NCBI GenBank assembly: GCA_022841745.1
Contig: JALHQW010000019.1
Location: 62,001 to 126,000, forward strand
Direction: 5' to 3'
DNA length: 64,000 bases
From: Saprospiraceae bacterium
Lineage (GTDB): Bacteria > Bacteroidota > Bacteroidia > Chitinophagales > Saprospiraceae
Below the pieces are notes generated by a model that was not told where the DNA came from, did not search any database, and saw nothing but the letters and a program-made list of their open reading frames with translations. Within the stretch, counting starts at the first letter, position 1, and each line of letters begins with the position of its first letter. This document shows positions 2,956-58,802 of this stretch, in pieces. Both the position numbers and the translations under genes were made by a program.

Positions 2956-3055
2956 AGCTACTTAGCAGAGGTGTTTTTTTTTGGAAAAAATACCTCAAAG
3001 CTGTGAGGAGAAAAAAATGATTTTTTCTCCTCACACACCCTCCTAAATAATTACG
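2956..3055. repeat. dispersed palindromic element, copy A
   Basis: A roughly 100-bp element with ends GCTACTTAGCAGAGGTGT and ACACCCTCCTAAATAATTACG, which are imperfect inverted repeats. Inside are a T/A-rich hairpin (gaggtgtttt to aatacctc) and a hairpin with gtgaggagaaaaaa arms at 3002-3033. It lies about 20-27 nt before the start of the second thioredoxin gene. One arm set (caaagctgtgagg) is partly decayed. Confidence 0.8.
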
Positions 3056-3200
3056 AAATGCAAAGTAAAGGGTTTAGCAAGTCAGATGCCCAATTCGCTG
3101 CTTATTCATAGGAAAGACAACAATTTTTTAACGAGATCAAGCGGCTTTTAGCCAAAGGTAGGGCTTCGTAGCTTGTGGGCTACCCATTTTTTGTCCCATC

Positions 3201-3280
3201 AAAATAATAAGAAAGCCCACACAGAACCGCCGTGCTGCCTGAACAGAATTGTGGCAATAAAGGGAGTTCGGTGTGGGCAA
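3201..3280 (-). terminator. probable terminator of the START-like gene
   Basis: On the minus strand the arms gcccacaccgaac and gttctgtgtgggc pair with one mismatch across a loop of about 40 nt, followed by TTTCTTATTATTTT. A second copy of the arm (gtgggct at 3175-3181) could pair with the same strand, so two mutually exclusive structures are possible. Confidence 0.5.
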
Positions 3281-3329
3281 TGGGTTCTTTTGCTAAACCA
3301 ATATTCCGCACATAAGCGAGGAATTGGAT

Positions 3330-3719
3330 TCAGTTGCCACCCCCTGTTTCTTTCTTGAGTACCTTAATTTGAGCTTCCCAAAGCGCCTTTTGCTCGTCAA
3401 CTTCGTCTTCGTCGCAGAAGTCAGTGATTTCGAGAATAGTTTCGCTGGTGACAGGTGCTTGGTAAATTTTAAATTCCAAGTATTCCCCGATCCTGTCCTC
3501 GTCGACCCATTCGAAATGGACAAGTTCTTCCTCAACGTCCTCGGTGAGGCGTGCTGGCTCTGGATAACCACTCCAACTGAAGATGTATAGGGTCTCGCCC
3601 GTCACCTCAATATCGTCGCAGAACCAGCGAACCAATTCCGAAGGCGAAGTGAAGAATTGGTACAGTAAGGTGGGCGAAGCCTTAAGGATGAATTCCAGTG
3701 TAATCTTTTTACGCTTCAT
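3330..3719 (-). CDS. START-like (SRPBCC) domain protein
   Basis: The protein has 129 residues and no signal peptide, so it is cytoplasmic. The opening KKITLEFILKASPTLLYQF, then SPSELVRWF and the acidic middle (EDVEEELVHFEW) match the small START-like/AHSA1-type proteins common in Bacteroidota. These fold as a helix-grip around a hydrophobic cavity. No catalytic residues or ligand are known for this subgroup. It ends in a glycine-rich tail (TGGGN). It stands alone between the thioredoxin pair and rpoD. Confidence 0.8.
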   Translation of the reverse strand: MKRKKITLEFILKASPTLLYQFFTSPSELVRWFCDDIEVTGETLYIFSWSGYPEPARLTEDVEEELVHFEWVDEDRIGEYLEFKIYQAPVTSETILEITDFCDEDEVDEQKALWEAQIKVLKKETGGGN

Positions 3720-4351
3720 ACAGCTGGACTATGGTTTGGAGCACTTGGGTCAAGAAATCGGCACAAGTCGTTGTTTTTCAACGCATTGTAGTCGTAATTT
3801 GACCAGCATGCCTGAGTTATTTGGTAAAAGGCAGCGGTTAGGATTAGGTGAAAACCAACCGTTTCCAATGATGGAAAACTGTTTTCCGGCCGGGCTTTGC
3901 AAAGCGCACTTCCGAGAAACGCCGCAAGTAAAAAGGAAAATGTTGATTTTTCCAAAAAATAAACTCAAATTCCTACAACAAGCGCATCCAAATGGACAAA
4001 ATAGTGGTTTTGAAGATTTTTTCTGTAAAAAAAACTTTTTTAATTAGGACAAGCACCTTTAAAATCAAGCGATTTTACATAAAAAAACAGGGGATATAAA
4101 AATACTTCCATGTATTTTGGTTGATAACCTCACCCAATTCCGTTATTTTTGCACCGTTTTTTCCTATCCTTTGACCGAACAGCGATTTTTTGATAAAACA
4201 ACTTGAAAATCAGGACGTTTGATATGTGATTTTTCTATAAATTGAAAAATAGTTGAGTATGAACGCCCGTTGACGCCCCATCCCCATAGCCAGCTATCAA
4301 AATATTTCTGAACAAGGCAACACTAAACCATTTCAAATTCAAGGTGGATTA
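3720..4351. other. 632-bp gap holding the rpoD promoter and leader
   Basis: AT-rich gap between the divergent START-like gene and rpoD. Short frames on the minus strand here (for example about 79 residues from 3955) have no recognisable domain and unusual composition, and I do not accept them. A promoter-like site lies at 4121-4151, leaving an rpoD leader of roughly 190 nt. Confidence 0.5.
4121..4151 (+). promoter_or_regulatory. candidate rpoD promoter
   Basis: TTG at 4121-4123 and TATTTTTG at 4144-4151 match the Bacteroidota -33/-7 pattern (TTTG, then TAnnTTTG about 20 nt on). Confidence 0.6.
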
Positions 4352-5221
4352 ATGAGACAGCTAAAAATTACAAAATCTATTACCAATCGGGAGAGTCAAT
4401 CCCTCGAAAAATACTTACAGGAAATCGGGAAAGTGGACCTGTTGACGCCTGAAGAGGAAGTAGATTTGGCAAAACGTATCAAGCAAGGCGACCAGACGGC
4501 ACTCGAAAAACTAACAAAGGCCAATCTTCGCTTCGTCGTTTCGGTGGCCAAACAATACCAAAATCAGGGCCTTTCCCTTAGCGACCTCATCAACGAGGGC
4601 AACCTCGGCCTCATCAAAGCCGCACAGCGCTTTGACGAGACACGGGGCTTCAAGTTCATCTCTTATGCCGTTTGGTGGATTCGCCAGAGCATCCTCCAGG
4701 CCTTGGCCGAACAGAGCCGCATCGTGCGCCTTCCCTTGAACAAGGTCGGCTCCCTGAACAAAATCAACAAGGCCTTCTCCGAATTGGAGCAGAACTTCGA
4801 ACGGGAACCATCGGCAGAAGAGCTTGCCAACCTGCTGGAAATACCCACCGAAGAAGTGGAAACAACGCTTGGCGTGGCCGCCCGCCACGTGAGCATGGAT
4901 GCCCCCTTCGTGGATGGCGAGGACAACTCCCTCCTCGATGTGTTGGAAAACATTCACTCCCCCAAGACTGACCAAGACCTTGAATATACGGAGTCGCTTC
5001 GCACGGAAATCGAACGCTCGTTGAGTACGCTCACCGACCGCCAGATGGATGTAATCAAGCTCTACTTTGGCATCGGCGTGCAGCACCCGATGTCGTTGGA
5101 GGACATCGGCGACAAGTTCGGCCTTACCCGTGAGCGGGTTCGCCAAATCAAGGACAAGGCCATCAACAAATTGCGCAGCGCCAATCGCAGCAAGTTGTTG
5201 AAGCATTACTTGGGCGCATAA
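4352..5221 (+). CDS. rpoD: RNA polymerase primary sigma factor RpoD/SigA
   Basis: The protein has 289 residues, the usual length of the housekeeping sigma factor in Bacteroidota, which lacks the long region 1.1 found in E. coli. Region 1.2 is at about residues 15-40. Region 2 includes [25 protein letters not shown] and the -10-binding [14 protein letters not shown]. Region 3 follows, and region 4.2 ends the protein with the helix-turn-helix [19 protein letters not shown]. It directs core polymerase to TAnnTTTG-type promoters, many of which occur in this window. It is monocistronic and followed by a hairpin terminator. Confidence 0.98.
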
Positions 5222-5245
5222 AAAATTGACGGGTTTCAATAAAGC

Positions 5246-5282
5246 AAAACGGCGGCGGTATCTAAGATGCCGTCGCCGTTTT
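5246..5282. terminator. bidirectional hairpin terminator after rpoD
   Basis: The stem aaaacggcggcggta pairs with tgccgtcgccgtttt around a short loop, with A and T flanks, between convergent rpoD and the lipoprotein gene. It resembles the hairpins at 418 and 11261. Confidence 0.85.
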
Positions 5283-5304
5283 GTTTTGTCCGGTCGGTGG
5301 TTTT

Positions 5305-5847
5305 TCAACCGCCCACCTTCCTGCCCTTGGCCACCCTTGAATTCACGTCCACCTTGTTGATTTTTCGCAAATCAACGAGCAGTGCCGCATAGGCATTATC
5401 GGAAGAAACTCGCCAAGTCTTGCTGTCATAGGTGACTTCTCCGCTCCTTCTGTCCCAGTCTGAAGCCATCAGCACGAAGCGGTCACTGTACTTAGGGCTT
5501 GGCCCGAAAATCAGGTAGCGGTCGTTGCTCTCCTCAAAGCCAATGGCAAAACGGTCTTCCTTCGGGCTGAACAAGTAAGCACCGGGCGTACCTTTCTTAA
5601 TGACCACCTCTTCGATTTTTCGCCCATCCTCAATTTTAATCTTTCCGGATACTACTTCACGGTCGCCGCCTGTGACTTCCCGCTTCAGAACGATGTCTTG
5701 GGAGACATAAAACTGGATTTTCTTCAGCTCGGTCTCTGTCCAACGATAACGGTCGTTGAGTTCATCGGTGAAGTAAGAAAGCCGGTTGCAGGCGCTAAAA
5801 AGCACCAAACTGAACACGGCCATGATTGCCAAAACTTGTGTTTTCAT
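5305..5847 (-). CDS. putative lipoprotein of unknown function
   Basis: The protein has 180 residues. The N-terminus MKTQVLAIMAVFSLVLFSAC is a lipoprotein signal peptide with a lipobox ending in Cys20. The rest is soluble and beta-rich, with a conserved-looking centre (FYVSQDIVLKREVTGGDREV, later RFAIGFEESNDRYLIFG) and a basic tail (RVAKGRKVGG). I do not recognise a named family. It should be anchored to the outer or inner membrane on the periplasmic side. It stands alone, convergent with rpoD. Confidence 0.8.
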   Translation of the reverse strand: MKTQVLAIMAVFSLVLFSACNRLSYFTDELNDRYRWTETELKKIQFYVSQDIVLKREVTGGDREVVSGKIKIEDGRKIEEVVIKKGTPGAYLFSPKEDRFAIGFEESNDRYLIFGPSPKYSDRFVLMASDWDRRSGEVTYDSKTWRVSSDNAYAALLVDLRKINKVDVNSRVAKGRKVGG

Positions 5848-6060
5848 AAATTGACTTTAGCTATTTTTGAAGAAGATGCACAAAATTTCAATTTTCCCCT
5901 ATCTAAGTAAGACGAAAAAATACACAATTTTCACGCAAGGATGCATGTAGGTTAAGCGTTTTTAACCACAGGTTAACTGTTTTTAACGTCACAGTTTTTG
6001 AAAATCCCCGATTTTTCCGCCAGTGCCGCACCTGATATTTGTCCTGTGTTTGTTATTAAT

Positions 6061-6140
6061 GGTCTCAATAAGAATTTGGTCTCACAATGAAATTTTGGTC
6101 TCAAAGGCGTTGTTTTAGTCTCATTAATTGATTGGTCTCA
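6061..6140. repeat. five regularly spaced GGTCTCA-type words
   Basis: GGTCTCA occurs at 6061, 6078, 6097 and 6134, and AGTCTCA at 6117, all in one orientation with spacings of 17-20 nt. They are mostly preceded by TTT or AT. Such phasing at about two helical turns suggests a protein-binding array. The region lies upstream of the lipoprotein gene and downstream of the lamin-tail gene. Confidence 0.55.
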
Positions 6141-6209
6141 CTTCAGAAAATTAAGGCTTCCCAAACGAGGGAGTTTTTCAGTTAAAAACAAAAAACAACC
6201 AGATTTGGG

Positions 6210-6247
6210 AAAAGCGGTGGCTGTGCAAACAGCGCCGCTTTTTATTT
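6210..6247. terminator. hairpin terminator
   Basis: An aaaagcgg arm pairs with ccgctttt around an inner ctgt/acag pair. T-rich on one side and A-rich on the other. It lies 3' of the lamin-tail gene, though its best U-tract is on the plus strand. Confidence 0.55.
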
Positions 6248-6287
6248 TTAGGCTAAGCCCAAATTGTTGGTGTGAATCTTCAATTTC

Positions 6288-8903
6288 CTAATTTCCTAGC
6301 CTCCCCGCCACCACACAAGTCTTCTTCATTTCCTTCACCGTGCCATCCGGGGTGTAAAGCTCCATCGCCAGCACATAAATGCCAATCTTGGCTTTCGTAC
6401 CGTCGTCCGTGTCGCCGTCCCATCGCAGGAATCCCTGCGTGGCCAGGATTTCGTTGTTGGCAATGGACTTGACAAAACGACCTTCTGCATCGAAAATGCG
6501 CACCTTGGCGGCATAGCCCGGCTTGTCTGTTTTATAATTGATGACTAAAAAATCTTGGTAGCCGTCACCGTCAGGGGATAAGGTGGTTTCGGGTAATTCA
6601 AAAAAATCGTTAACAACCGATTGGTTTTCAAAGAATTGCGAATTGGGGTAAGTGGGCGTTGCCCAGCCGGCGCTCTTGGCAGCGGAATGCCAGTTGGCTG
6701 GGTCTTGCGTCGTGCCATCGGGGTGAAGGCGCTCCAAGGAAACGCCGTCCACTTCATCGAGCAGTGGGTGGTGAAGGTCTTCCGAGTAATCGAATTCGTC
6801 AATGATGACTGCACCGATGGAGCCAGCTTGGTAGAGCGTCACATTTCCCTCGTCGTCGTTGAAGGAGGGCAGGTCGTTGGCGATGAGGGCGTTTGGCACC
6901 TGCACGGTATAGCGGCTTTGGATGTCGCTGGGGCTTTCAGTGAACACAACGTATTCGCTGGGGAAAATAAGGCGGTCAATGCCCACACTGGCCGTACTGG
7001 TGTCCTGTAGGTTGGCAATGACGATGCTTCGTAGGTTCAATACCTTACTGGAACGGTTATAGACCTCCACGAAGTCCACGCCGCCTGTTTGTGGGTTGAA
7101 CAATATTTCATTGATTATCAAGTCGTTGGGTTCTATTTGTGCAGGCAATGCGAAACTAAGCGTACCTGTGCCAGCAAGGGCATTGCCTGAGCAGTCGGCC
7201 ACGTTCTGTATGGTCACTGCGTAAAAAACGCTCTGCTGTAGCGGCCCGCTCAGTTGCAGCGCCACGGCGAAGGAGTAAGGTTGTAGAAAGCTGACCGATA
7301 CCACGCTCAGGCCACCACTGATGGCATAATTGGCAGGGTCGGTAGCCGATGCGGGGTCGAGCCTTTCATCGAAAAACACCTGCACCTCGTAGGGAGCGAG
7401 TCCACTGGCGAAGACGCTGCTTGGAACAGGAGCCGTAAGGTCGGGCTGTGGGTTGAGCACCGAATTGGGTTGGCCTGGCGTGCCACCGAGCAGGCTGACG
7501 CTGGCCCGCCAGTTGGCCGAACCACGGCAGGGTGCCAGTGGGCTGATGAGTTCGATCGACCAGCCTCCTTCTTCTTTTTGGGCGTCGCCATACCAGCTAA
7601 GGCTATAGTTCACTTCGTGAATGGCGTTGCCATTGGCGTCGCTCAGGCTTAGGTCGTCGCCGTCATTGGTGAGCAAAGGGAAGGAACCAAGGCCCACCAC
7701 ATTGCCGAAGGCAGTCAATGAATCCAGTTTTGAGTCGTCACAAACGATGAGGTAGCTGCCGGGCAGCATTTGGTAGCTGGGGAAAATTTGCGGAGTACCG
7801 CCACTTGAAAACCTAAACCCAGCAAGGTCGAGCACCTTGTCGCTGCGGTTGTATAGTTCGATATACTCAACAGAAGGCAGTGCCACAGGCGGTGTAGGGT
7901 CGGCCATTATTTCATTGATTAAAATATCGTACTCCACAGCCTCGGCCACTTCCACGTAGCTGAAACTGGCGTTTTGCGGAGCAGCCAAATTCCCTTCCAA
8001 ATCTGCAATGGAATTGACGGTCAGCACGTAATCCGTCAGGTTTTGGAGGGTGCTGCCCAGCGATAGGTGTACCAGCGTTTTGTCTGTCCCATCTAAAAAA
8101 GCGGCGGCTGGCTGCCCGATGCCTTGGTCAAGGCTGTAGTTGTCGGGGTCGGTAGCGGTGGCTTCGTCGAGATTTTCGTTGAAACGGACATCCACCTCAG
8201 TGGCTGAGACGGGCGTTGCAGAGAGCAGCACGGGCGGCGTGGTATCTGGCAGGAGCGGCTGCACATTGATGTCGTCGAAAAAGAACTTGTCCTTACGGGT
8301 GGCGGTGTAGAGGCAATAAAAGCCAAAATACGAGTCGCCTGCGCCATAGGTAGCGTCGGTGGTTTCAAATTGTGGGCTGAGGTTCTGGCCACCAGCATAG
8401 TCAGCGGACAGGTTCCAAAGCCCCCCGGCATTACGGATCATGCGCAGCCGAACGGAGGGCGAACTGGCCACCGTGCCCGCAGCAGTGGATGCCAACACGG
8501 TCGCTGTGCCCGCATCCTGTCGGATGAATTGAATGGCATCGCCAGCGCCATCCACGCCAATGAGCAAGTAATAGCCATTGCCAGTGAGCAGGTTCGGCGA
8601 ATCGGACTGGAGGAATATGCGCAGGCGGTTGCCGCTTGAGGGGTCGAACTCCAAGCGGAAGTACAGTTCCCAAACAGCACTATCGGCAATGGCCGTTGGC
8701 AGGTAAAGCAGGGAGGTGCCGGCGTCTGGGCCATTGAGTTGCAGCTCTTGGGCTGCGTTCACTTGGAACTCCGTTACATCGCCCTGCCAAGCGGGGTTTG
8801 CGGTGAAATCGCCATCTGAGAAATTGTCTGAAAATTGAGCCTTGGCGGTCAGTACCATAAAAAAGGCCAAGAACGCCCCAGCCAAGCATTTTAAAAACTG
8901 CAT
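6288..8903 (-). CDS. large exported lamin-tail-domain surface protein with FlgD-like C-terminus
   Basis: The protein has 871 residues starting MQFLKCLAGAFLAFF, a signal peptide ending near TAKAQ. The N-terminal region of about 200 residues is a jelly-roll/laminin-G-like module. Two SbsA-type Ig-like stretches (PVLLSATPVSATEVDVRF and the similar PVPSSVFASGLAPYEVQVFF) each precede a lamin-tail domain, marked by ILINEIMADP...EYIELYNRS and LIINEILFNP...DFVEVYNRS. The end (LSPDGDGYQDF through RIFDAEGRFVKSI) is a FlgD/CHU_C-like Ig module used for surface attachment or type IX secretion in Bacteroidota. It is probably a cell-surface protein; its role is unknown. Confidence 0.88.
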   Translation of the reverse strand: MQFLKCLAGAFLAFFMVLTAKAQFSDNFSDGDFTANPAWQGDVTEFQVNAAQELQLNGPDAGTSLLYLPTAIADSAVWELYFRLEFDPSSGNRLRIFLQSDSPNLLTGNGYYLLIGVDGAGDAIQFIRQDAGTATVLASTAAGTVASSPSVRLRMIRNAGGLWNLSADYAGGQNLSPQFETTDATYGAGDSYFGFYCLYTATRKDKFFFDDINVQPLLPDTTPPVLLSATPVSATEVDVRFNENLDEATATDPDNYSLDQGIGQPAAAFLDGTDKTLVHLSLGSTLQNLTDYVLTVNSIADLEGNLAAPQNASFSYVEVAEAVEYDILINEIMADPTPPVALPSVEYIELYNRSDKVLDLAGFRFSSGGTPQIFPSYQMLPGSYLIVCDDSKLDSLTAFGNVVGLGSFPLLTNDGDDLSLSDANGNAIHEVNYSLSWYGDAQKEEGGWSIELISPLAPCRGSANWRASVSLLGGTPGQPNSVLNPQPDLTAPVPSSVFASGLAPYEVQVFFDERLDPASATDPANYAISGGLSVVSVSFLQPYSFAVALQLSGPLQQSVFYAVTIQNVADCSGNALAGTGTLSFALPAQIEPNDLIINEILFNPQTGGVDFVEVYNRSSKVLNLRSIVIANLQDTSTASVGIDRLIFPSEYVVFTESPSDIQSRYTVQVPNALIANDLPSFNDDEGNVTLYQAGSIGAVIIDEFDYSEDLHHPLLDEVDGVSLERLHPDGTTQDPANWHSAAKSAGWATPTYPNSQFFENQSVVNDFFELPETTLSPDGDGYQDFLVINYKTDKPGYAAKVRIFDAEGRFVKSIANNEILATQGFLRWDGDTDDGTKAKIGIYVLAMELYTPDGTVKEMKKTCVVAGRLGN

Positions 8904-8936
8904 GAACAATCTGTTTTGCGGAGCAAGGTAAGAAAT

Positions 8937-9007
8937 AGGGATGAGGTACGAGGAATGAGGGATGAAATGCCCGAAGCTTCACCCCTCATTCCTCGTACCT
9001 CATCCCT
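8937..9007. repeat. perfect 24-bp inverted repeat
   Basis: The arms at 8937-8960 (agggatgaggtacgaggaat plus gagg) and 8984-9007 are exact complements around a 23-nt loop. They are built from repeats of the word gaggtacgagg/gatgagg. It lies in the divergent gap between the lamin-tail gene and dnaN. Confidence 0.8.
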
Positions 9008-12669: not shown

Positions 12670-13872
12670 ATGAAAAACGCAATCAAATCCATTATCAACG
12701 GCTCCGCTGCTTCCGGCACTTTGACACACGAGGTCGCTTATCTCCTTTTTCGATTCTACTGCGGCTTCACTATTGCCAAAGGGGCCGGGCTTTCAAAGGT
12801 CTTCCATAAAATAGATGAAAACGGCACCGACAGTTGGGACAACCTCGCCTTTGGTGTACCACAATGGTTTGTTGACCAAGTGGGCGAAATCGGCTTCACG
12901 TTCGTTTCACCATCGTTCTGGGCACACGTAGCGGTTTATGGCGAGTTCATCGGTGGGCTGTTGGTAGCCTTGGGGCTTTTTACCCGCATCTCGGCCATCC
13001 AGTTGGCATTCCAGTTCTTCGTGGTGTCGTTCATCTGGTACGACGAGCCGATGCCCTTTGCCATGTACTATCAGCAGTTGATTTTCTGGGGGTTTGTGCT
13101 CATCGCTGCGGTGGGCGGTGGGCGTTTTTCACTAGATAATTGGTTGGAAAACAGGCAGTTGCGCAGCAATTTTTCCACTAAGAATCTCGTCGTGGCGAGC
13201 TGCCTCGTGTTGATGCCGCTGGTGGGTTTTTCGCAAAACAATGTCGAAGTAAAACGGGTCAGCTTTACCCTAAGCAACCCATCCCTCAAGGCCAAAGACT
13301 TGGATGTGCGCTATTTTGAACCATCTACGAAACAGACAGCTGGCTATGGCTTCCACCTCGGCCCACTGCAAAACCATGCTGACAATAAGCCCGTGGGTAC
13401 CCGTGTTTACCTAAAAAAATGGGATGGTTACGAACTTGCCTTCGTGCTCACTGCCGACGATGACGGGAGAAAATTCGACATCGGAAAACACTATGAAATC
13501 AGTCAGGAACAGTGGCTGCAAGCCGCTCGTGACGAGGAAGGTGAGCGCATAGCCGCCCTCGAAGATGCCAATGCCACCGACGATTTGGAGGTGTTTGCAA
13601 AGCAAAAAGGGCTGCCGATGGTTACATTCGTCGTTGCGGGCAAATCGCCCTTGAAGCGGCAAGTGCATGTGAGGGCGCAATTGCCTTCGGTGGATGAAAA
13701 AACAAATTACGGGTTCAGCCGGAAACTCAGCACGTTCAGCCGATTTGAGGTTAGTTATCCGGTTGGAACGAAAATTTACCTTTGCGACGGTCCCTACTGG
13801 AACGGCGAGGTAAAAGAGACACTGCTGCTGACCGTGGACGCCGAAAAACAGAATTATTTGGTCAGGATTTGA
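12670..13872 (+). CDS. DoxX-like membrane protein fused to a periplasmic domain
   Basis: The protein has 400 residues. The first half has four hydrophobic helices in a DoxX/TQO-small-subunit arrangement (YLLFRFYCGFTIAKGAG, then YGEFIGGLLVALGLFTRISA, then QLIFWGFVLIAAVGGGRFSLD). Around residue 175 a fifth, signal-like segment (LVVASCLVLMPLVGFSQ) leads into a soluble domain of about 200 residues that I do not recognise (includes GYGFHLGPL and LYF-poor beta-rich repeats of DGYELAFVL type). DoxX proteins act in quinone or thiol redox at the membrane. The second half looks like an exported protein whose signal peptide became an internal helix. It heads a cluster with AraC, Crp, pirin and YceI genes. 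Confidence 0.75.
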   Translation: MKNAIKSIINGSAASGTLTHEVAYLLFRFYCGFTIAKGAGLSKVFHKIDENGTDSWDNLAFGVPQWFVDQVGEIGFTFVSPSFWAHVAVYGEFIGGLLVALGLFTRISAIQLAFQFFVVSFIWYDEPMPFAMYYQQLIFWGFVLIAAVGGGRFSLDNWLENRQLRSNFSTKNLVVASCLVLMPLVGFSQNNVEVKRVSFTLSNPSLKAKDLDVRYFEPSTKQTAGYGFHLGPLQNHADNKPVGTRVYLKKWDGYELAFVLTADDDGRKFDIGKHYEISQEQWLQAARDEEGERIAALEDANATDDLEVFAKQKGLPMVTFVVAGKSPLKRQVHVRAQLPSVDEKTNYGFSRKLSTFSRFEVSYPVGTKIYLCDGPYWNGEVKETLLLTVDAEKQNYLVRI

Positions 13873-13879
13873 TTGGCTT

Positions 13880-13960
13880 GGTTGATAGGGGTTGATGAGG
13901 TTGATATGGGTTGATGGGGCCCATATCAACCTCATCAGCCCTTATCAACCCTTATCAACC
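13880..13960. repeat. private-word inverted repeat (GGTTGATA type)
   Basis: Repeats of ggttgatagg/ggttgatgagg are followed by the complementary cctcatcagcccttatcaacc words. The arms gaggttgatatggg (13897-13910) and cccatatcaacctc (13919-13932) are exact. It ends 6 nt before the next start codon. A related GTTGATA patch is at 23379. Confidence 0.75.
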
Positions 13961-22830: not shown

Positions 22831-23385
22831 TTGGACTACGGAAGCACCCACAGGGACATCGTTGAGAACTGCATGAGGGGTGACCGAAAAGCGCAGTTCG
22901 AACTTTACAGGCTGTATTCACAAGCCATGTACAACGTATGCCTCCGTATGGTAAACAGTGCCCTCGACGCCGAGGACCTGCTTCAACAGTCGTTCATTGA
23001 TGTTTATTCCAAAATGGATAGCTTCCGCTACGAGTCCACCATCGGGGCTTGGATTAAGCGGATTGTGGTCAACAACTGCATCAATTTTCTGAAAAAACGC
23101 AAGCTGAAGATTGAGACATTGGACGACCGCTTCCACCATGTGCCCGACCACGAACCTGTGGGCGAAAAGCACCTGAACGTAAAGGCCATTAACGACGCCA
23201 TGACCAAGCTGCCGGATGGTTACCGGGTGGTGTTCAGCCTGTACCAATTCGAGGGCTACGACCACAAGGAAATAGGAGAGATACTCGACATCACCGAGGC
23301 CACCTCCAAGTCGCAGTTCAGCAGGGCCAGGAAAAAACTCAGGGAACTGCTGGAGGGGCAGCAACTATTGATTGATAAAAGTTGA
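22831..23385 (+). CDS. ECF-type RNA polymerase sigma factor
   Basis: The protein has 184 residues. The likely start is TTG at 22831, because the conserved RDIVENCMRGDRKAQFELY lies upstream of the first ATG (22873). Region 2 contains DAEDLLQQSFIDVYSKM and WIKRIVVNNCINFLKK. Region 4 contains LPDGYRVVFSLYQFEGYDHKEIGEIL and SQFSRARKKLREL. It is a SigW/RpoE-like alternative sigma factor. The next two genes are a single-pass membrane protein and an exported DUF4097 protein, a common Bacteroidota set in which the second gene is the presumed anti-sigma factor. Confidence 0.92.
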   Translation: MDYGSTHRDIVENCMRGDRKAQFELYRLYSQAMYNVCLRMVNSALDAEDLLQQSFIDVYSKMDSFRYESTIGAWIKRIVVNNCINFLKKRKLKIETLDDRFHHVPDHEPVGEKHLNVKAINDAMTKLPDGYRVVFSLYQFEGYDHKEIGEILDITEATSKSQFSRARKKLRELLEGQQLLIDKS

Positions 23386-23460
23386 TAGCGGTTGATAAGG
23401 GTTTATAAGGTTGATACACGCTGAATCAACCTTGTAAACCTTCATCAACCCTTATAAACC
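23379..23460. repeat. private-word inverted repeat (GTTGATAAGG type)
   Basis: Words ggttgataagggtttataagg are followed by complementary aatcaaccttgtaaacctt and catcaacccttataaacc. It begins over the stop codon of the sigma gene and ends 8 nt before the next start. It is related in wording to the patch at 13880. Confidence 0.7.
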
Positions 23461-23468
23461 ATAAAAAA

Positions 23469-25275: not shown

Positions 25276-25392
25276 CGTAACTTCTAAGGAGGGTTGGGAG
25301 GAGAGAAAAAAAATCATTTTTTCTCTCCTCCCATGTTTTGGGTTATTTTTATGCTATATAAAATGAGGGCAAAAGGTTAGCAGAAAGACGTA
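25276..25392. repeat. dispersed palindromic element, copy B (right end decayed)
   Basis: The left end cgtaacttctaaggagggt is followed by the main hairpin gggaggagagaaaaaa and its complement (25296-25332). The second hairpin (gttttgggttattttt) and right end (ggttagcag) are degraded. It directly follows the terminator of the sigma operon. Confidence 0.75.
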
Positions 25393-34675: not shown

Positions 34676-34750
34676 TATGCGAACATTTTGAGCCACAAAG
34701 GTATTACAGATAGACGCAATCAAATTTGATACTTGGGTTTAACAAGCTTG

Positions 34751-34834
34751 CAGTCGCCTTCGAGAGGAGGGGTTATCAAACCCCGTAGTTCCGGAACTGC
34801 GGGGTTTGATAACCCCTCCTCTCGAAGGCGACTG
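34751..34834. repeat. 84-bp near-perfect palindrome without loop
   Basis: Two 42-nt arms meet with no spacer and differ at one position (ccccgtagttcc versus ggaactgcgggg). It lies in the divergent gap between the GT39 gene and the PBP1A gene. It would form a cruciform in DNA or a strong hairpin in RNA. Confidence 0.9.
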
Positions 34835-34916
34835 CCCTTGAATTTAAATGGGTGCCTAAATAAAATGGGGTTGTGGGCAATAGCCAACTCGTTGCTCAAA
34901 ACTCGCAACTCCTAAC

Positions 34917-40649: not shown

Positions 40650-40839
40650 AGGGGTATGAAGGGCTTTCTTATAAAAACTGCGCCTGGTTAATTTGTCGCT
40701 TTTGTCATCGCCGAAGGTGAACTGCGGCATCACGAGGGCAGTCCCGCATGACGTCGCAGGTCGCCTTCGGCGATGACAAAAGCGACTTAACAGGACAAAG
40801 TATGGATTTACAATTTTTATAAGAAATGCCTTTACCCCT
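40650..40839. repeat. 190-bp nested palindromic element (MITE-like)
   Basis: The outer arms aggggta...tttcttataaaaa (40650-40677) and tttttataagaaa...tacccct (40814-40839) are inverted. The inner arms gtcgcttttgtcatcgccga plus agg (40695-40717) and its exact complement (ending 40786) form a second 23-bp stem. The whole element begins at the TPR stop codon. No reading frame is present inside. Confidence 0.75.
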
Positions 40840-45804: not shown

Positions 45805-45936
45805 GTAGCAACTTAGGAGGGGATGGGAGGGGAGAGTAAAAATTTCATTTTTTCTCTCCCCTCCCATATTTATATGTGCGTTTGGGTGAAAAATTGAAAA
45901 ATTTTAAACCAAAAACATACCCTGCTAATCAGTTAC
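45805..45936. repeat. dispersed palindromic element, copy C
   Basis: The left end is gtagcaacttaggaggggat and the right end is cataccctgctaatcagttac. The first hairpin gggaggggagagtaaaaa/ttttctctcccctccc spans about 45824-45865. The second inner hairpin has gtttgggtgaaaaatt and aattttaaaccaaaaac arms. It ends 40 nt before the glycosylase ATG; a weak TATCTTGT lies just upstream. Confidence 0.8.
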
Positions 45937-49021: not shown

Positions 49022-49101
49022 AAAACTCCCTAAAAACTTGGGAGGAGAGAGAAAAAATTTCATTTTTTCTCTCTCCTCCCACACCCTTCTTAGCAGTTAC
49101 T
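49022..49101. repeat. dispersed palindromic element, copy D (shortened)
   Basis: The main hairpin gggaggagagagaaaaaa with its complement spans 49040-49080. It is followed by the right end acacccttcttagcagttac (49081-49100), directly against the stop codon of the next gene. The second inner hairpin and left end are missing. Lying between convergent genes, it can also act as terminator. Confidence 0.8.
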
Positions 49102-51913: not shown

Positions 51914-52034
51914 AAGCAGGAATTTAATGGTGAATGTTTGTTGATTATAGATTTCAGTGAAGCTCCAGATAGCGGCAGTTATCTGCCAAGGTTGAAGGCC
52001 CTGTGTAATTAAAAGCTGTTTGAAAATCGAAGGT

Positions 52035-52153
52035 GACAGCTTAGTGGGGAGGGATAAAGAAGATATTTCATTTTTCTTTTCCCCTTCCGCAATTGGGAAG
52101 TTATTGGGGAAGGGTTTCAATTTCACCAAAAACACACCCTACTAAGCAGGTAC
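52035..52153. repeat. dispersed palindromic element, copy E
   Basis: The left end is gacagcttagtggggaggga and the right end is aacacaccctactaagcaggt. The inner hairpins are weaker than in other copies (agaagatatttcatttttctt and ttggggaagggttt). It is in the 327-bp gene-free gap upstream of the choice-anchor gene, about 120 nt from its start. Confidence 0.75.
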
Positions 52154-52795: not shown

Positions 52796-52805
52796 AATGA
52801 TTGGG

Positions 52806-52935
52806 CGTAACTGATTAGGAGGGTGTGGGAGGAAAGAAAAAATGAAATTTTTTCTCTCCTCCCACGTTTTGGAGTGTTTTTGGGGTAAAAATTTTCAATT
52901 TTTACCCCAAAAACATCCCTTATTAAGTAGTTACG
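52806..52935. repeat. dispersed palindromic element, copy F (best preserved)
   Basis: The ends cgtaactgattaggagggtgt and atcccttattaagtagttacg are inverted repeats. Hairpin 1 gggaggaaagaaaaaa and its complement span about 52828-52863. Hairpin 2 gtttttggggtaaaaatt with its near-perfect complement spans about 52875-52916. It ends 11 nt before the acyltransferase start, and the -7 box for that gene is 18 nt beyond the other end. Confidence 0.9.
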
Positions 52936-52952
52936 ATTGGGCTTATCTTGTC

Positions 52953-52960
52953 CAAAGATA
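52953..52960 (-). promoter_or_regulatory. candidate -7 box for the acyltransferase gene
   Basis: TATCTTTG on the minus strand is an exact TAnnTTTG match just outside element copy F. A transcript from here would carry the whole element in its leader. Confidence 0.55.
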
Positions 52961-53013
52961 CGTGCAACAGAGCGTTATTTATATGCGCATTGTTTGAATT
53001 TGCCATCATCAAT

Positions 53014-54087
53014 CTACCCCTCCTCCTGCATAGCCCTCATTTTTTCTGTATTTTCTGCAATCTGGAGCCCCTCTATGATTTTTCCAATTTCGCCCTCCAT
53101 CACCTGATCGAGGTTGTAAAGGGTAAGGTCAATGCGGTGGTCGGTGATACGGTTCTGCGGAAAGTTGTAGGTGCGAATCTTCTCGGAGCGGTCGCCCGAC
53201 CCGACGAGCGACTTGCGATGGGCGGCAATGGATGACTCCATCTTCTCCTTTTGCATCTCATATATTTTCTGGTAGAGCCTTTGCTCTGCAATTTCTTTGT
53301 TAGAGTGCTGCGAGCGTCCCTCTGTACATTCTACCACCACTCCAGTGGGTAGGTGAGTGAGGCGTACGCCTGACTCCGTTTTGTTCACATGCTGGCCGCC
53401 CGCACCACTTGAACGGAATGTATCAATCTTGAGGTCGGAGCGGTTGATGTTCACGTCTTCCATCTCCATCTTTGGCATGACGGCCACGGTGGCGGCGCTC
53501 GTATGCACACGGCCCTTGGTCTCAGTGTCGGGCACTCGCTGCACCCTATGTACGCCAGACTCGAACTTCATCTTCCCATAGACATCGGTGCCCCGGACTT
53601 CTACGGAAACCTCTTTGTAGCCTCCTACGGTGCCTTCATTTTCATAAAGTGGCTCGGTCTTCCAGCCCTGCGTCTCGAAATATTTGGTGTACATGCGGAA
53701 CAGGTCACCCGCAAACAGGCTGGCTTCGTCGCCGCCAGTGCCCGCCCGAACCTCGAATATGATGTCCTTACTGTCCTCGGGGTCACGGGGTATTAGCAGC
53801 GTTTTTAGCGCCTCCTCCAACTGCTCCCTGCGTGGCTCAAGTTCCTGTAGTTCGAGCTTGGCCATTTCCCGCAGTTCGTCGTCCTTTTCCCGGAGCAGTT
53901 CTTTGGCCCCTTCCAGGTTTTCCAACACTTTTTTGTAGTCCACGTAAACGTCAACCACCTCTTTCAGCTTGAAGTATTCCTTGCTGATTTTGGTGTAACG
54001 GGTCTGGTCGTTGACGATTTCAGGGTCGGACATTTGCTCCTCCAAGTTGATGAAGTTGTTGCGAATGGATTCGAGTTTATCTAACAT
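53014..54087 (-). CDS. prfA: peptide chain release factor 1
   Basis: The protein has 357 residues, the usual RF1 length. The catalytic GGQ is at 230-232 (SSGAGGQHVNKTESGVRLTH). The stop-codon-recognition tripeptide is P186-D-T188 in HRVQRVPDTETKGRVH, matching the PxT of RF1 rather than the SPF of RF2. It ends translation at UAA and UAG by triggering peptide release on the ribosome. It is transcribed divergently from tsaB, with 177 bp between them. Confidence 0.97.
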   Translation of the reverse strand: MLDKLESIRNNFINLEEQMSDPEIVNDQTRYTKISKEYFKLKEVVDVYVDYKKVLENLEGAKELLREKDDELREMAKLELQELEPRREQLEEALKTLLIPRDPEDSKDIIFEVRAGTGGDEASLFAGDLFRMYTKYFETQGWKTEPLYENEGTVGGYKEVSVEVRGTDVYGKMKFESGVHRVQRVPDTETKGRVHTSAATVAVMPKMEMEDVNINRSDLKIDTFRSSGAGGQHVNKTESGVRLTHLPTGVVVECTEGRSQHSNKEIAEQRLYQKIYEMQKEKMESSIAAHRKSLVGSGDRSEKIRTYNFPQNRITDHRIDLTLYNLDQVMEGEIGKIIEGLQIAENTEKMRAMQEEG

Positions 54088-54264
54088 GAGCTTTTTTTAG
54101 AATTTTGCGCCAGCAAACGGACGATGTGTTTTGTAAAATAGGACAGAAGCATTTGCCCGTGCCGGGCAACGAATAGGGTAGCGTAGCTACAAACAACGGT
54201 ACGGCAGGAGGGTTTTCATGTATGGCGCTTCGCAAAATGAGGTGCAAAACTAACAAAAACGGCA

Positions 54265-54969
54265 TTGAATACAACGGAACCATTGATTTTGAACATCGAG
54301 GCAGCAACAAGCGTCTGCTCGGTATGCTTGAGCCAGGGAGGCGAGGTGCTTTCGCTGCACGAGTCCACAGGGCAAAACGAGCACAGCAGGGTGATAACCT
54401 TGCTCATTGAGCGATGCATGGCCGATGCTGGGCTAAAGCTCACCGACTTGGATGCGGTAGCCGTAAGCGAGGGGCCGGGCTCCTACACTTCGCTCCGTGT
54501 TGGCTTTTCAACGGCCAAGGGGCTTTGCTTTGCATTGAATATTCCCCTGATTGCCGTCAGCACTTTGGCCTCATTGGCCCATGCAGCTTTTGAAGCGGTG
54601 AAGGACTCGTCTGCGCTTTACTGTGCGATGATTGATGCGAGACGCATGGAGGTTTATGCTGCCTTATTTGATGCAGATGGCAATGAGCTTTCGCCTCCCA
54701 CCCCGATGATTATTGACGACAGTTCTTTTGAAAGATACTTTTCTGAGGGTAAGAAAATCGTTTTCTGTGGAAATGGGACAGAGAAGTGCAAAACGGTTTT
54801 GACATCGGACTTGGCAACGTTCAGTGGTATTATTAACAATAATTCTTCGTACTTAGTCAAGGGTTCACTGATAGCTTTTTCACATAAGATTTTTGCAGAT
54901 ACTGCCTACGCAGTTCCGCACTATCTAAAGCCTCCAAATATCACCTCCGCAAGGCAAGTTTCTTTATAA
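54265..54969 (+). CDS. tsaB: tRNA threonylcarbamoyladenosine biosynthesis protein TsaB
   Basis: The protein has 234 residues. No ATG lies before the conserved LILNIEAATSVCSV, so the start is TTG at 54265 or possibly TTG at 54286. The TsaB signature is DAVAVSEGPGSYTSLRVGFSTAKGL, followed by ARRMEVYAA. TsaB pairs with TsaD and TsaE to make t6A37 in tRNAs that read ANN codons. It ends with the common short tail (PHYLKPPNIT). Confidence 0.94.
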   Translation: MNTTEPLILNIEAATSVCSVCLSQGGEVLSLHESTGQNEHSRVITLLIERCMADAGLKLTDLDAVAVSEGPGSYTSLRVGFSTAKGLCFALNIPLIAVSTLASLAHAAFEAVKDSSALYCAMIDARRMEVYAALFDADGNELSPPTPMIIDDSSFERYFSEGKKIVFCGNGTEKCKTVLTSDLATFSGIINNNSSYLVKGSLIAFSHKIFADTAYAVPHYLKPPNITSARQVSL

Positions 54970-55208
54970 ATCGCTGATAATCAGAAGCTAAAATTTCATA
55001 TAATAAAAAATTATACTTTTAATTTTCTTTGAATTTTAAAAATGTGCTTTTATTTTTGCCTTGATTTCACGCATTTTAAGCATTACAAAGGACTTACATC
55101 ACTTCGATTGGTATAGTTCTTGGATTGCAGGTATGAGGATTTTATTAATTTGAGAAAACTTGATGTTGGTTCAACAATTTTTTAACCAATTTTTAAAATA
55201 AAACATAT

Positions 55209-55547
55209 ATGAGAAAGCAAAAGAGCGAGACCATCGTGCTCAAGAAGGGAAAGGAGGAAATTCAACTCGACTACGCAGAGCTGCGCAAAGCCGTGTTGGT
55301 GCTCCGGGCCATCAATCACAAGCTCCGCCAACGTGTCATTGACTTGTTGGAAGAGAATGAGAAGATGACCGTCACCGACATCTACATCAAATTAAGGCTT
55401 GAACAGTCTGTGGCTTCCCAGCATTTGGCCATCCTTCGTAGGGCTGGCGTCGTCGCCACTGAACGCCAGGGCAAATTCATTTTTTACGGATTGGATAAGG
55501 ATCGCTTAGGGCAAATCTCCAAATTGGTGGAAGATTTGGCAGCCTAA
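55209..55547 (+). CDS. ArsR-like winged-helix regulator (first of a pair)
   Basis: The protein has 112 residues. The winged-helix part has AINHKLRQRVIDLLEENEK, TVTDIYIKLRLEQSVASQHLA and ILRRAGVVATERQGKFIFYGL, the ArsR pattern of helix-turn-helix plus beta-wing. No metal-binding cysteine motif (ELCVCDL) is present, so the signal is unknown. It is very similar to the next gene, which follows after a terminator-like hairpin. Confidence 0.9.
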   Translation: MRKQKSETIVLKKGKEEIQLDYAELRKAVLVLRAINHKLRQRVIDLLEENEKMTVTDIYIKLRLEQSVASQHLAILRRAGVVATERQGKFIFYGLDKDRLGQISKLVEDLAA

Positions 55548-55719
55548 TACCATTTACGGTGTTCTATTGAGCCTTATGCTGTAACGGCATGAGCTTGCTT
55601 GCTATAAATGGTAATCTAAAAATCCCCGGAATGAAAAAAATTTGACTAAACAGTGGACGGCCAACGTACACCTCTGCTTGGCCGATCCCCCAATTTTTAG
55701 ACTTGTAAGGCTTTTCAAA

Positions 55720-55758
55720 AAATGCTGTAAACCTCCCATAGGATTACAGCATTTTTTT
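55720..55758 (+). terminator. hairpin terminator between the ArsR-like genes
   Basis: aaatgctgtaa pairs perfectly with ttacagcattt around a 13-nt loop and is followed by a T-run. Confidence 0.8.
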
Positions 55759-55833
55759 ATAATTTTTTTGAAAAGATAAATATTAACCGCATATTTGCCC
55801 CACAACTTCGTTTTTGCCAAAAATTTGACTTCT

Positions 55834-56175
55834 ATGAGAAAGGCTAAGGTAAGCATCAACGATGACAAGCTTCAGTTGTCATCAGAGATACTAAGGGCGT
55901 TGGCGCATCCGCTGCGCATGCAAATACTTGAGTTCATTGACGAACACGAAAGTATCAACGTCAACAAAATCTACAATACCCTCAAGTTGGAACAGTCCAT
56001 CACCTCCCAGCACTTGCGCATCTTGCGTTCTGCTGGTATCGTTGAGACGGTACGTGACGGCAAGTTCATCCATTACAAGGTGGACTACGACAGGGTAAGC
56101 AATGCCATGAAGGCCATTGGTTATTTCCTGAGCACCTTCACCGGTGAGATCGAGGATGATGGAGAGGACCTGTAG
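55834..56175 (+). CDS. ArsR-like winged-helix regulator (second of a pair)
   Basis: The protein has 113 residues starting MRKAKVSINDDKLQL; a longer frame upstream reads non-conserved sequence. ILRALAHPLRMQILEFID, then VNKIYNTLKLEQSITSQHLRI and LRSAGIVETVRDGKFIHYKV closely parallel the neighbouring protein. The end is acidic (GEIEDDGEDL). No metal-binding cysteines are visible. The two regulators are probably a duplication with separate transcription. Confidence 0.9.
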   Translation: MRKAKVSINDDKLQLSSEILRALAHPLRMQILEFIDEHESINVNKIYNTLKLEQSITSQHLRILRSAGIVETVRDGKFIHYKVDYDRVSNAMKAIGYFLSTFTGEIEDDGEDL

Positions 56176-56259
56176 CGTAGTTTGTTGACACGACTAACTT
56201 GGGCGTACCTGTGGCGAGCCTTTTAGCCCAAGCAAAAAGCAGCATATTTTAAGTCGTTC

Positions 56260-57210
56260 TTACCCTTCAATAAACAAGGCTGATATCGAGCGGTGCTCGT
56301 GGGTGTTCCGTATTGCCCTCGCAAATAGCTTCGCTGTAGAGAGTACCTTTATCTTGTCCGGGCGCTTTGTCTGTGCGATGGGTATGGTATCGCATACGAG
56401 CAGCTCTTGCAGCGCGGATTTTTCGATGTTTTCGAAAGCCTTGCCTGACAGTACCGGATGCGTACAGATGGCCCTAACACTTTTTGCTCCTTCCTTCATG
56501 ATGATGTCAGCCGCTCTGCAAAGTGTGCCCGCCGTGTCAACTAAGTCATCCACCAAAATAACATCGGCACCCTTTACGTCGCCAATCACCGTCATTTCGG
56601 CAATCTCATTGGCCTTCTTTCGGTATTTGTCACAGATGACAAGGTTCTTCCCAAAATGCTTGGCATAAGTTCTTGCCCTTTTCACGCCGCCAACATCGGG
56701 CGAGGCAAATAGCGCATTGCTTAGATCCATTTTCTCTAGGTGCGGCATATAGATGGCTTCGCTCTTCAAGTGGTCAACGGGGATGTCAAAAAAGCCCTGT
56801 ATCTGGTCTGCGTGAAAATCCATGGTCATCACCCGGTTGGCTCCCGCAGCTTGCAGTAGCTCGGCAATCAGTTTGGCCGAAATCGGAACACGGGGTTTGT
56901 CCTTTCGGTCTTGGCGGGCATAGCCGAAGTAGGGTATAACCGCAGTGATGTACCCAGCCGAGGCACGTTTCACGGCATCAATCGTAAGCAGTAGCTCCAT
57001 TAAGTTTTCGGAGGGAGCAAAAGTGGACTGCACCAAAAACACATAGGCACCACGCACCGATTCGTTGACGACGGGTTGCATTTCACCGTCGCTGAAACGG
57101 TTCACCGAAATGTCGCCGAGGGGCTGCCCGTAATAGTCCGCTATTTTCTCTGCAAGATAGGTGGAGTTTGTTCCTGAGAATATTTTTACTTCAACCATAG
57201 CATTTGACAT
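56260..57210 (-). CDS. prs: ribose-phosphate pyrophosphokinase
   Basis: The protein has 316 residues. KIFSGTNSTYLAEKIADYYG, RFSDGEMQP, YFGYARQDRKDKPRVPISAKL, VMTMDFHADQIQGFFDIPVDHL and the PRPP loop VILVDDLVDTAGTL are all conserved. A second ATG at 57198 (MVEVKIFSG) is an equally good start. It converts ribose 5-phosphate and ATP to PRPP for nucleotide, histidine, tryptophan and NAD synthesis. A -7 box lies about 127 nt upstream. Confidence 0.97.
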   Translation of the reverse strand: MSNAMVEVKIFSGTNSTYLAEKIADYYGQPLGDISVNRFSDGEMQPVVNESVRGAYVFLVQSTFAPSENLMELLLTIDAVKRASAGYITAVIPYFGYARQDRKDKPRVPISAKLIAELLQAAGANRVMTMDFHADQIQGFFDIPVDHLKSEAIYMPHLEKMDLSNALFASPDVGGVKRARTYAKHFGKNLVICDKYRKKANEIAEMTVIGDVKGADVILVDDLVDTAGTLCRAADIIMKEGAKSVRAICTHPVLSGKAFENIEKSALQELLVCDTIPIAQTKRPDKIKVLSTAKLFARAIRNTHEHRSISALFIEG

Positions 57211-57336
57211 AGTTTCAGATTGGCAGGGGGTGGGTTTGCTTGAATAAAATGCCTTGGAAATCCATTGAATGAAATATTGCCAGAATTGCCATTGGCGGTT
57301 TTCTCACCTGCAAAGCCCATAATTGTGTTGATGCTG

Positions 57337-57344
57337 CAAAAGTA
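57337..57344 (-). promoter_or_regulatory. candidate -7 box for prs
   Basis: TACTTTTG on the minus strand is an exact TAnnTTTG match in the 190-bp gap between the VWA gene and prs. Confidence 0.5.
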
Positions 57345-57401
57345 GAAATTCTTTGCTCATCACCGGGAGGTGAATTCAAGGCAAAACTTGTTTCAATCCC
57401 T

Positions 57402-58517
57402 TTACTGGGTTGCCCAGTGGCTCAAATCTTTTTTGGCGATGGCTGCCTCCATCAATTCTGGAAACCTGTCAGGCGTGCAGGCAAAGCTTGGAACGTCGAG
57501 GGAAGCGAGGTTGGCCGCCATGGATTTATCAAAAGATGGCGCACCCTTATCGTCCAGCGCTAAGAGTACTATTAGGTTCACGCCCGAGGCTTTCACGGCT
57601 GCGGCTTTCTTGACCAACTCTTCTTGGTTCCCTCCTTCATAAAGGTCGCTGATTAAAACCAAGATGGTATCGCTTGGAACTTGAATCAATCCTTGTGCGT
57701 AGCCCATCGCCTTGTTGATGTCCGTGCCACCGCCAAGTTGGGTGCCGAACAACAAGTCAACAGGGTCTTTCAGGTCATTGGTCAAGTCAACTACTGCCGT
57801 ATCGAAAGCGATGAAATATGTTCGAATAGATTTCAGGGAGGCCATGATGGCCCCCATCACCCCGGCATAAACCACTGAAGCCGCCATGGAGCCGCTTTGG
57901 TCAACGAGCAATATCACATGCTTCAATGATTGGCCTTTTCGGCCGTGCCCGATGATGGTCTCAGGTATGATCGTCTGGTAATCGGGTTGGTAGTGCTTGA
58001 GGTTCAAGCGGATGGTACGATTCCAGTCCACCTCGTTGAGTTTTGGCCTTCTGTTGCGCACCGAGCGGTTCAATGCGCCTTCTATTGCTTGCCGCAATGG
58101 GTTCCGCATTTTTCGCTCCAACTCCTCCACTACCTTCTTAATGACCATCCGTGCGGTTTCCTTCGTCTTCTGCGGCATGATCTTGTTCAAGGACAGCATG
58201 GTGGCAACAAGGCTGACATCCGGCTCAACCATTTGCAAGAGTTCTGGTTCCAAGAGCAGCCGTTGAAGCTGAAGTCGTTCCACAGCGTCTTTCTGCATAA
58301 CTTGTACGACTGTTGTTGGAAAATACTGCCTTATGTCACCCAACCACCGGTTGACATTGGGAGATGATGCACCGAGTCCCCCCTTTCGCTCTGTGTTGTA
58401 CAATGCCTCCAGCACATTGTCCATACCGGCAGCACCTGCCTCTAAGCCTACCTCCCCTTCTGGGTCAGCTTGCTTGCCGAGTATCAATCGCCATTTTTGT
58501 AAACGGGTATCTTCCAT
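57402..58517 (-). CDS. VWA-domain (CoxE-like) protein
   Basis: The protein has 371 residues without signal peptide. The N-terminal half is helical. The von Willebrand A domain (about 200-360) has the MIDAS motif LLVDQSGSMAASV and the later LGGGTDINKAM (Thr) and VLISDLYEGG (Asp). It ends DLSHWATQ. Such cytoplasmic VWA proteins usually work with a MoxR-type AAA ATPase as a metal-insertion or folding machine, but no ATPase gene is adjacent here. The promoter was not found. Confidence 0.9.
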   Translation of the reverse strand: MEDTRLQKWRLILGKQADPEGEVGLEAGAAGMDNVLEALYNTERKGGLGASSPNVNRWLGDIRQYFPTTVVQVMQKDAVERLQLQRLLLEPELLQMVEPDVSLVATMLSLNKIMPQKTKETARMVIKKVVEELERKMRNPLRQAIEGALNRSVRNRRPKLNEVDWNRTIRLNLKHYQPDYQTIIPETIIGHGRKGQSLKHVILLVDQSGSMAASVVYAGVMGAIMASLKSIRTYFIAFDTAVVDLTNDLKDPVDLLFGTQLGGGTDINKAMGYAQGLIQVPSDTILVLISDLYEGGNQEELVKKAAAVKASGVNLIVLLALDDKGAPSFDKSMAANLASLDVPSFACTPDRFPELMEAAIAKKDLSHWATQ

Positions 58518-58642
58518 GAGGGTAAAATTAGCAATGTTGCGGTATTCTTAATTTTATTAAACTATAATTAAATACGTTAAAATTTTATATATTTTATACC
58601 CTTTCCATTCGCTACTCATCGGCTTTTTAGCATAAGTCTTGC

Positions 58643-58650
58643 TACTTTTG
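58643..58650 (+). promoter_or_regulatory. candidate -7 box for thrB
   Basis: TACTTTTG is an exact TAnnTTTG match, 25 nt before palindromic element copy G and 162 nt before the thrB ATG. Confidence 0.55.
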
Positions 58651-58675
58651 GGCTTGCTTTGAAACAACAAATAAA

Positions 58676-58802
58676 GCAACTGGTCAGCAGGGGATGTTTT
58701 TGGGTAAAATTGAAAATTTTTACCCAAAAACACACCCATATCTGGGAGGGGGGAAAAAATGAATTCCCCCCCCCCCTTCCAGAGACCCTCCTAAGTAGTT
58801 AC
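58676..58802. repeat. dispersed palindromic element, copy G
   Basis: The left end is gcaactggtcagcaggggatg and the right end is agaccctcctaagtagttac. Hairpin 2 (gtttttgggtaaaattg and its complement) comes first, at about 58695-58732. Hairpin 1 (gggaggggggaaaaaat and a stretch with 11 C in a row) follows at about 58744-58779. It ends 9 nt before the thrB start. Confidence 0.85.

Follow-up and report, generated by a model that had tools for sequence, protein, structure and literature searches.

The 64,000-nucleotide stretch of Saprospiraceae bacterium DNA analysed here (the window; contig JALHQW010000019.1, positions 62,001 to 126,000, or C19:62001-126000) contains seven copies of a short palindromic element without a gene. 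Comparison with the whole genome (8.43 Mb in 178 contigs) and with related genomes gives good support for an assignment of this family to miniature inverted-repeat transposable elements (MITEs) of the IS66 type, with the ends of the single-ORF (open reading frame), ISBst12-type IS66 elements of Saprospiraceae. The complete reading, to which we give a probability of about 0.8, is that of a MITE that would be mobilised by an IS66 transposase and whose palindrome arms would copy one another at the DNA level after insertion. An IS66-type MITE is ordinary as a kind; it is the internal behaviour of the element that is instructive.

Anatomy and copies of the element

The element is bounded by 17-bp inverted ends with the sequence GTAACTACTTAG(G/C)AGGG, which differ at position 13, where the left end has G and the right end C. 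In an alignment of 29 copies, the layout in one direction is GTAACTACTTAGGAGGGTG, then hairpin 1 (stem close to GTGGGAGGAGAGAGAAAAAAT), joined through a short linker to hairpin 2 (stem close to GGGGTGTTTTTGGGGTAAAAATT), and the inverted end, which reads GTAACTACTTAGCAGGGGG inwards. A covariance model built from 29 copies, including four of the seven in the window (C, E, F and G), recovered all seven with E values of 1e-25 to 2e-9; copies A, B and D, absent from the model, reached the scores given in Table 1. The ends and both hairpins are common to the set, and the seven related copies proposed by the earlier note are thus real. Its observation that the hairpins occur in either order also holds, with A, D and G being the reversed copies. 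Copies B and D had been described as decayed or shortened: B is decayed and D is short, its flanks still matching by eye. The coordinates were adjusted for copies A (2956-3054) and F (52807-52934) and for the start of copy E (approximately 52033).

Table 1. Copies of the element in the window and the two hairpins of copy F. Scores are those of the covariance model, with E values in brackets for the copies absent from it.
Feature	Coordinates	Strand	State	Score, bits	8-bp flanks	Flank identity
Copy A	2956..3054	-	hairpins shortened	63.1 (9e-11)	GAAATGCC / GAAATGCA	7/8 by eye, end at 2956; 1/8 at model boundary 2954
Copy B	25277..25391	+	decay in hairpin 2 and at right end; hairpin 1 intact	56.2 (2e-9)		2/8, no clear target duplication
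Copy C	45805..45936	+	full length	130.9	GTGCTTTC / CTGCTTCC	6/8
Copy D	49022..49100	-	79 bp; retains hairpin 1 and one end, lacks hairpin 2 and second end	69.8 (4e-12)	CTCAATTC / TTCAATTC	7/8 by eye; 3/8 at longer model boundary
Copy E	52033..52153	+	full length, diverged	80.8	ATCGAAGG / ATCGAAAA	6/8 with one-base shift of left boundary; 3/8 at model boundary
Copy F	52807..52934	+	full length	134.8	GATTGGGC / GATTGGGC	8/8
Copy G	58676..58802	-	full length	110.3	CAAATAAA / CCAATAAA	7/8
Hairpin 1 of copy F	52825..52865	+	stem GTGGGAGGAAAGAAAAAAT, loop GAA
Hairpin 2 of copy F	52875..52915	+	stem TGTTTTTGGGGTAAAAATT, loop TTC

The search of the genome with a covariance model, which the earlier note had proposed as a check, revealed further copies. 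At least 90 non-overlapping places were found, approximately 11 per Mb, and the element is 115-136 bp long at 79 of them. This number is a lower bound, with 150 of 4970 first-look candidates scored, and the weakest places may include false ones; at least two more end pairs (C43:54879 and C65:4854) lie outside the 90 places. The places were obtained by reducing 148 model rows by hand, after which the lack of overlap was checked by computation. The element lies on the minus strand of its contig at 46 places and on the plus strand at 44. The end motif alone, with up to two mismatches allowed, matched the genome 67 times, compared to 3 matches for the reversed motif. The density in the window (7 in 64 kb, versus an average of about 0.7) had suggested hundreds of copies genome-wide. 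The copies found do not demonstrate such a number: when 90 copies were placed uniformly, 2 of 500 trials had seven within any 64 kb, and the window is therefore a dense spot. Copies also cluster at the level of contigs, with eight on C19 (127 kb) and five on C37 (77 kb), where uniform placement predicts about 1.4 and 0.8.

Target duplication and an empty site

Flanks were compared at the model boundary at all 90 places. Mean identity peaked only at a flank length of 8 bp (0.703), the values being 0.296 at 6, 0.405 at 7, 0.356 at 9 and 0.289 at 10 bp. On average 5.62 of the 8 bases were identical; all eight matched at 16 places, seven at 23, six at 13, five at 16 and fewer at 22. Five or more identical bases were thus present at 68 of 90 places versus 6.6% of permuted pairs. 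The 8-bp duplication is made at insertion of the element.

An empty site was found at the position of copy E. In six relatives of the same genus the aligned flanks are separated by 0 to 92 bases, compared to 222 to 318 here, and the covariance model detected no copy at these six loci, so that the site is without the element in all six related genomes read. Loci L197 to L200 were retrieved but set aside. Three of them (G006, G008 and G011) carry the family elsewhere. Among the features by which MITEs are recognised, small size, lack of a gene, inverted ends, target duplication and many copies were observed, and insertion polymorphism was seen at one site only, that of copy E. The earlier description as REP/MITE-like (REP, repetitive extragenic palindrome) therefore stands in its MITE part, as the element has inverted ends and an 8-bp duplication, is present in both orientations at 90 or more places and is missing from one site in relatives; the REP part is not supported. 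In the available portions of the papers on them, a Porphyromonas gingivalis MITE (PMC4596501) and MITEPsy1 (PMC3189936) are likewise short and gene-less, with inverted ends, several copies and presumed mobilisation in trans; MITEPsy1 differs in being listed there as 'IS5?'.

Ends common to the element and IS66 elements

The genome has a single locus for an IS66 transposase, a relic on contig C78 that is frameshifted into two frames over which DUF6444, zf-IS66 and DDE_Tnp_IS66 domains are spread. Its second frame ends within GTAACTGCTTAGGAGGTGC (C78:11691-11707), which is the end of the element with two mismatches. By eye, the other end was identified as GTAACAGTTTAGCACC with its start at 13187, and the relic spans 1497 bp. 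As in the MITE, position 13 is G in the left end and C in the right.

A strong IS66 match was present in 10 of 199 genomes of the bacterial family, including the genome studied here. The 12 IS66 places (13 loci) were searched for ends, which were required to start with GTA. Five places had GTAACT at both ends and 7 or 8 of 8 duplicated bases; in one (L115), with ends such as GTAACTATTTAGGAGGCAC, the element also measures 1497 bp. Three others (L114, L118 and L121) had paired ends with flank identities of 5, 4 and 2 of 8, and at four (the relic, L090, L091 and L120) no ends were detected by the script, which sought only those starting with GTA. Ends of this type are therefore found in Saprospiraceae IS66 elements and in the relic of the same genome. 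Outside the family, ISDge4 of Deinococcus geothermalis, from the single-ORF ISBst12 group of IS66, is described in the part of its report available to us with ends GTGACTACTCAGCA / GTAACTGCTCAGCA, that is, GT(A/G)ACT.CT(C/T)AGCA with imperfect agreement between left and right, and with an 8-bp repeat (PMC12898284). A length of 8 bp is also listed for two IS66 elements of Paracoccus (PMC3281130).

By comparison with the Saprospiraceae elements and ISDge4, the family has both the GTAA-start ends and the 8-bp duplication of the ISBst12 group. It has no internal DDE_Tnp_IS66 transposase and is too short for one, and is thus not a member of IS66 but at most a derivative. ISDge4 encodes a transposase of 449 aa, as far as the portion of the source available goes (PMC12898284), and Saprospiraceae IS66 elements are about 1.5 kb long with a transposase gene, whereas the MITE is approximately 130 bp long and gene-less, with only the ends in common with such insertion sequences.

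The common ends suggest mobilisation by an IS66 transposase: such a DDE transposase, supplied in trans, would move the gene-less element and make the 8-bp target duplications. The earlier note had named either a RAYT/Y1 (REP-associated tyrosine transposase) or a DDE transposase as mobiliser; the former is not supported, the eight of nine Y1 loci that were fetched being without a copy and the chemistry not being one that yields an 8-bp duplication, and the latter fits, in the form of the single-ORF IS66 type. Mobility of the family in this genome has probably ceased, because the one IS66 locus found is frameshifted and the two most similar of 80 copies are 93% identical. A Saprospiraceae repeat family thereby gains a likely mobiliser, along with defined ends and a target duplication. 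In the part of the open-licence literature that was covered, no IS66-type MITE like this one was found.

Pairing of the hairpins and decay of the ends

Hairpins were tested at the 80 of 90 places that are at least 115 bp long; the 10 shorter ones were excluded. In 64 copies with at least 5/8 identical flank bases, the mismatch was 0.182 in the duplication and 0.319 in the ends, compared to 0.092 in hairpin 1 and 0.131 in hairpin 2. The same four values were 0.353, 0.496, 0.100 and 0.193 in the 29 copies whose ends had decayed most. When independent decay was simulated and taken through the same procedure, a duplication mismatch of 0.187 was accompanied by values of 0.168 and 0.188 in the two hairpins. 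A set of 43 copies was recognisable by one end alone, the hairpins not being needed to find them; here the mismatch of the duplication exceeded that of hairpin 1 by 0.035 to 0.120 (95% bootstrap interval).

The 29-copy alignment also revealed pairs changed on both sides: 11 of 21 in hairpin 1, 11 of 21 in hairpin 2 and 3 of 16 in the ends (22/42 versus 3/16, Fisher p 0.04). Overall, 25 of 58 pairs were changed in this way, 22 of them in the hairpins, compared to 10.4 in shuffles. On each of five measures the observed value lay beyond all 500 shuffles, a result that related sequences can give without structure. Counts of shared versus private arm changes (136 to 100 and 174 to 110) were inflated by the register of the loop and stem foot and were left unused.

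Inversion of the loops

The loop of hairpin 1 reads TTTCA or its reverse complement TGAAA, and that of hairpin 2 TTGAAAA or TTTTCAA, while the rest of the element keeps one direction. Among the 80 copies, the two orientations were found in 26 and 22 for hairpin 1 (32 unassigned) and in 25 and 24 for hairpin 2 (31 unassigned or both). Each of the four possible combinations is present (16, 4, 6 and 9 copies), and the two loops are not independent of each other (Fisher p 0.03). In pairs of copies at least 85% identical, loop 1 differed in 19 of 71 and loop 2 in 17 of 79, such pairs being non-independent.

These features can be accounted for by a process at the DNA level. After insertion, the target duplication and the ends would decay, while the palindrome arms would overwrite each other, through template switching during replication or exchange of cruciform arms; this copying would keep the stems paired and occasionally invert the short loop. 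Homogenisation of stem arms and inversion of loops or spacers by template switching are described, in the available parts of the two papers, for hairpins of rRNA genes (PMC8794818) and for inverted repeats in yeast (PMC8604942). Those cases concern rRNA genes and yeast coding DNA, whereas here there are many copies of a bacterial transposon, each with a duplication that can serve as a clock. In the small part of the literature that was covered, no inverting MITE loops were found. We lean towards regarding the element as a many-copy record of DNA-level palindrome maintenance, in which the loops flip towards 50:50 and the duplication is the clock. If arm copying is correct, replication alone can produce in selfish DNA the covariation that is normally taken as a sign of functional RNA. 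With a duplication next to every copy, it becomes possible to gauge how fast arms are corrected relative to ordinary substitution.

Placement relative to genes

The 90 places comprise 46 between tandem genes, 18 between divergent and 9 between convergent genes, 9 at edges and 8 inside a gene call. Thus 73 of 81 non-edge places lie between genes, according to crude gene calls made with a home-made codon score trained on 30 ORFs of the window. Some 'inside' calls are possibly over-extended starts; copy G, for instance, sits at the start of a TTG-started ORF (58659-59744). Relative to transcription, 27 elements have the same orientation and 19 the opposite one.

Hairpin mismatches read in the transcribed strand of the tandem copies were G·U in 23, A·C in 25 and other in 24 cases. 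No match to Rfam was found in the window at the gathering score, which gives no indication of a known structured RNA there, and placement relative to genes does not support a transcription terminator.

Alternative explanations

A number of observations weigh against the combination of IS66 mobilisation and arm copying. No target duplication was recognisable by eye at the C78 relic. A search of 14 genomes of the genus with the first frame of the relic gave matches in three, one being the relic itself, and did not turn up an intact IS66 element with exactly these ends: an intact gene was 42% identical to that frame, but its ends were not found, and a 59-residue piece, 80% identical, contained a stop. 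Only the ends match the insertion sequence (IS), the inner palindromes having no visible likeness to it, and 22 of 90 places have fewer than 5/8 identical flank bases. As to pairing, the excess of duplication mismatch over that of hairpin 2 in the 43 end-recognised copies was borderline and not significant (-0.002 to 0.081). The pairs of hairpin 1 form part of the covariance model, which gives an advantage to copies that retain this stem. Taking the best-scoring position for each hairpin makes its apparent mismatch lower; the simulation does likewise, but from one starting consensus. Finally, on the element's own strand G·U exceeded A·C mismatches by 48 to 33, and the mean score of hairpin 1 was 14.4 beside divergent (n=18), 17.1 beside tandem (n=42) and 19.5 beside convergent genes (n=6), a trend in the direction predicted by RNA selection but not significant (p 0.16).

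That the genus yielded no intact IS66 partner with these ends, and that the inner part is unlike an IS, would suit a MITE moved by some other DDE transposase that also makes 8-bp duplications, which are not unique to IS66. We consider this improbable, as the ends GTAACT..TTAG(G/C)A are common to the IS66 elements of the bacterial family and the genome's own relic. Spread of a REP/REPIN family by a RAYT (Y1, IS200/IS605-type) transposase would agree with palindromic, mostly intergenic sequences in many copies, and the genome has nine matches to Y1 transposase domains. The chemistry of Y1 transposases, however, does not make an 8-bp duplication, and no copy of the element was found within approximately 1.5 kb on either side in the eight of nine Y1 loci that were fetched. 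REP palindromes resemble the element in copy number and have, by the definition in the available part of the source, a GTAG tag at one end (PMC3733652), whereas here the ends are inverted, of IS66 type and without such a tag. The duplications and the Y1 loci lead us to reject this explanation as very improbable. Low-complexity stems could make unrelated A/T-rich hairpins look alike by chance, an idea of negligible probability that is refuted by the excess of end motifs over the reversed pattern and by 8-bp duplications over 90 places.

A different alternative accepts the MITE as described and has its stems kept by RNA selection, as a terminator, an mRNA stabiliser or a host small RNA. It would account for the strong covariation and the intergenic position of most copies, and the own-strand excess of G·U and the somewhat weaker hairpin 1 beside divergent genes lean the same way. 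It explains pairing, but not the inverted loops, which are seen in about half of the assignable copies. Moreover, G·U is not in excess in the transcribed strand of tandem copies (23 to 25), the placement and the orientation to transcription are not terminator-like, and Rfam gave no match in the window. We regard RNA selection as unlikely. Since mismatches in the transcribed strand are not biased towards G·U and the placement is unlike that of terminators, we moderately favour arm copying at the DNA level as the mechanism.

Range among relatives

The model matched 6 of 60 relatives, all of the same genus (the genome itself and 5 of 13 other species there), and none of the 46 genomes outside the genus. 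With stricter filters and 11 candidates scored per genome, 3 of 298 genomes of the bacterial family matched, again all of this genus. In the genomes searched, the family was thus seen only in one genus of Saprospiraceae. An exact two-ended pattern scan of named genomes identified the family in SCUG01000138.1 and only the type of ends in JAEUUQ010000126.1; this pattern misses most copies, the scan may lack records close to the host, and the result says little on range.

Small elements with similar ends, for example GTAACTGCTTAGCAGGG, and different insides were noticed in a genome of the same genus without a model match, G010 (L098 1475-1517, only 43 bp long; L100 1501-1653; L102 1359-1517), and such ends may therefore serve more than one MITE. 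Another small element of this kind is L112 5524-5646.

Other repeats in the window

A second palindromic repeat was sought in 208 loci and none was found. In the window, the palindrome GTTCCACGTGGAAC occurs in two exact copies, at 60742-60755 and 61109-61122, 367 bp apart, with 0 expected in shuffles; it resembles a parS partition site. The first copy lies within an ORF (59790-61094) that by eye looks like threonine synthase. Inverted repeats at 34750-34835, 40695-40786 and 8937-9007, with arms of 43, 44 and 30 nt that are 98, 86 and 97% complementary, are perhaps further palindromic elements. An inverted pair of 81 nt (13879-13959 and 23381-23461), 74% complementary, may be another dispersed hairpin repeat.

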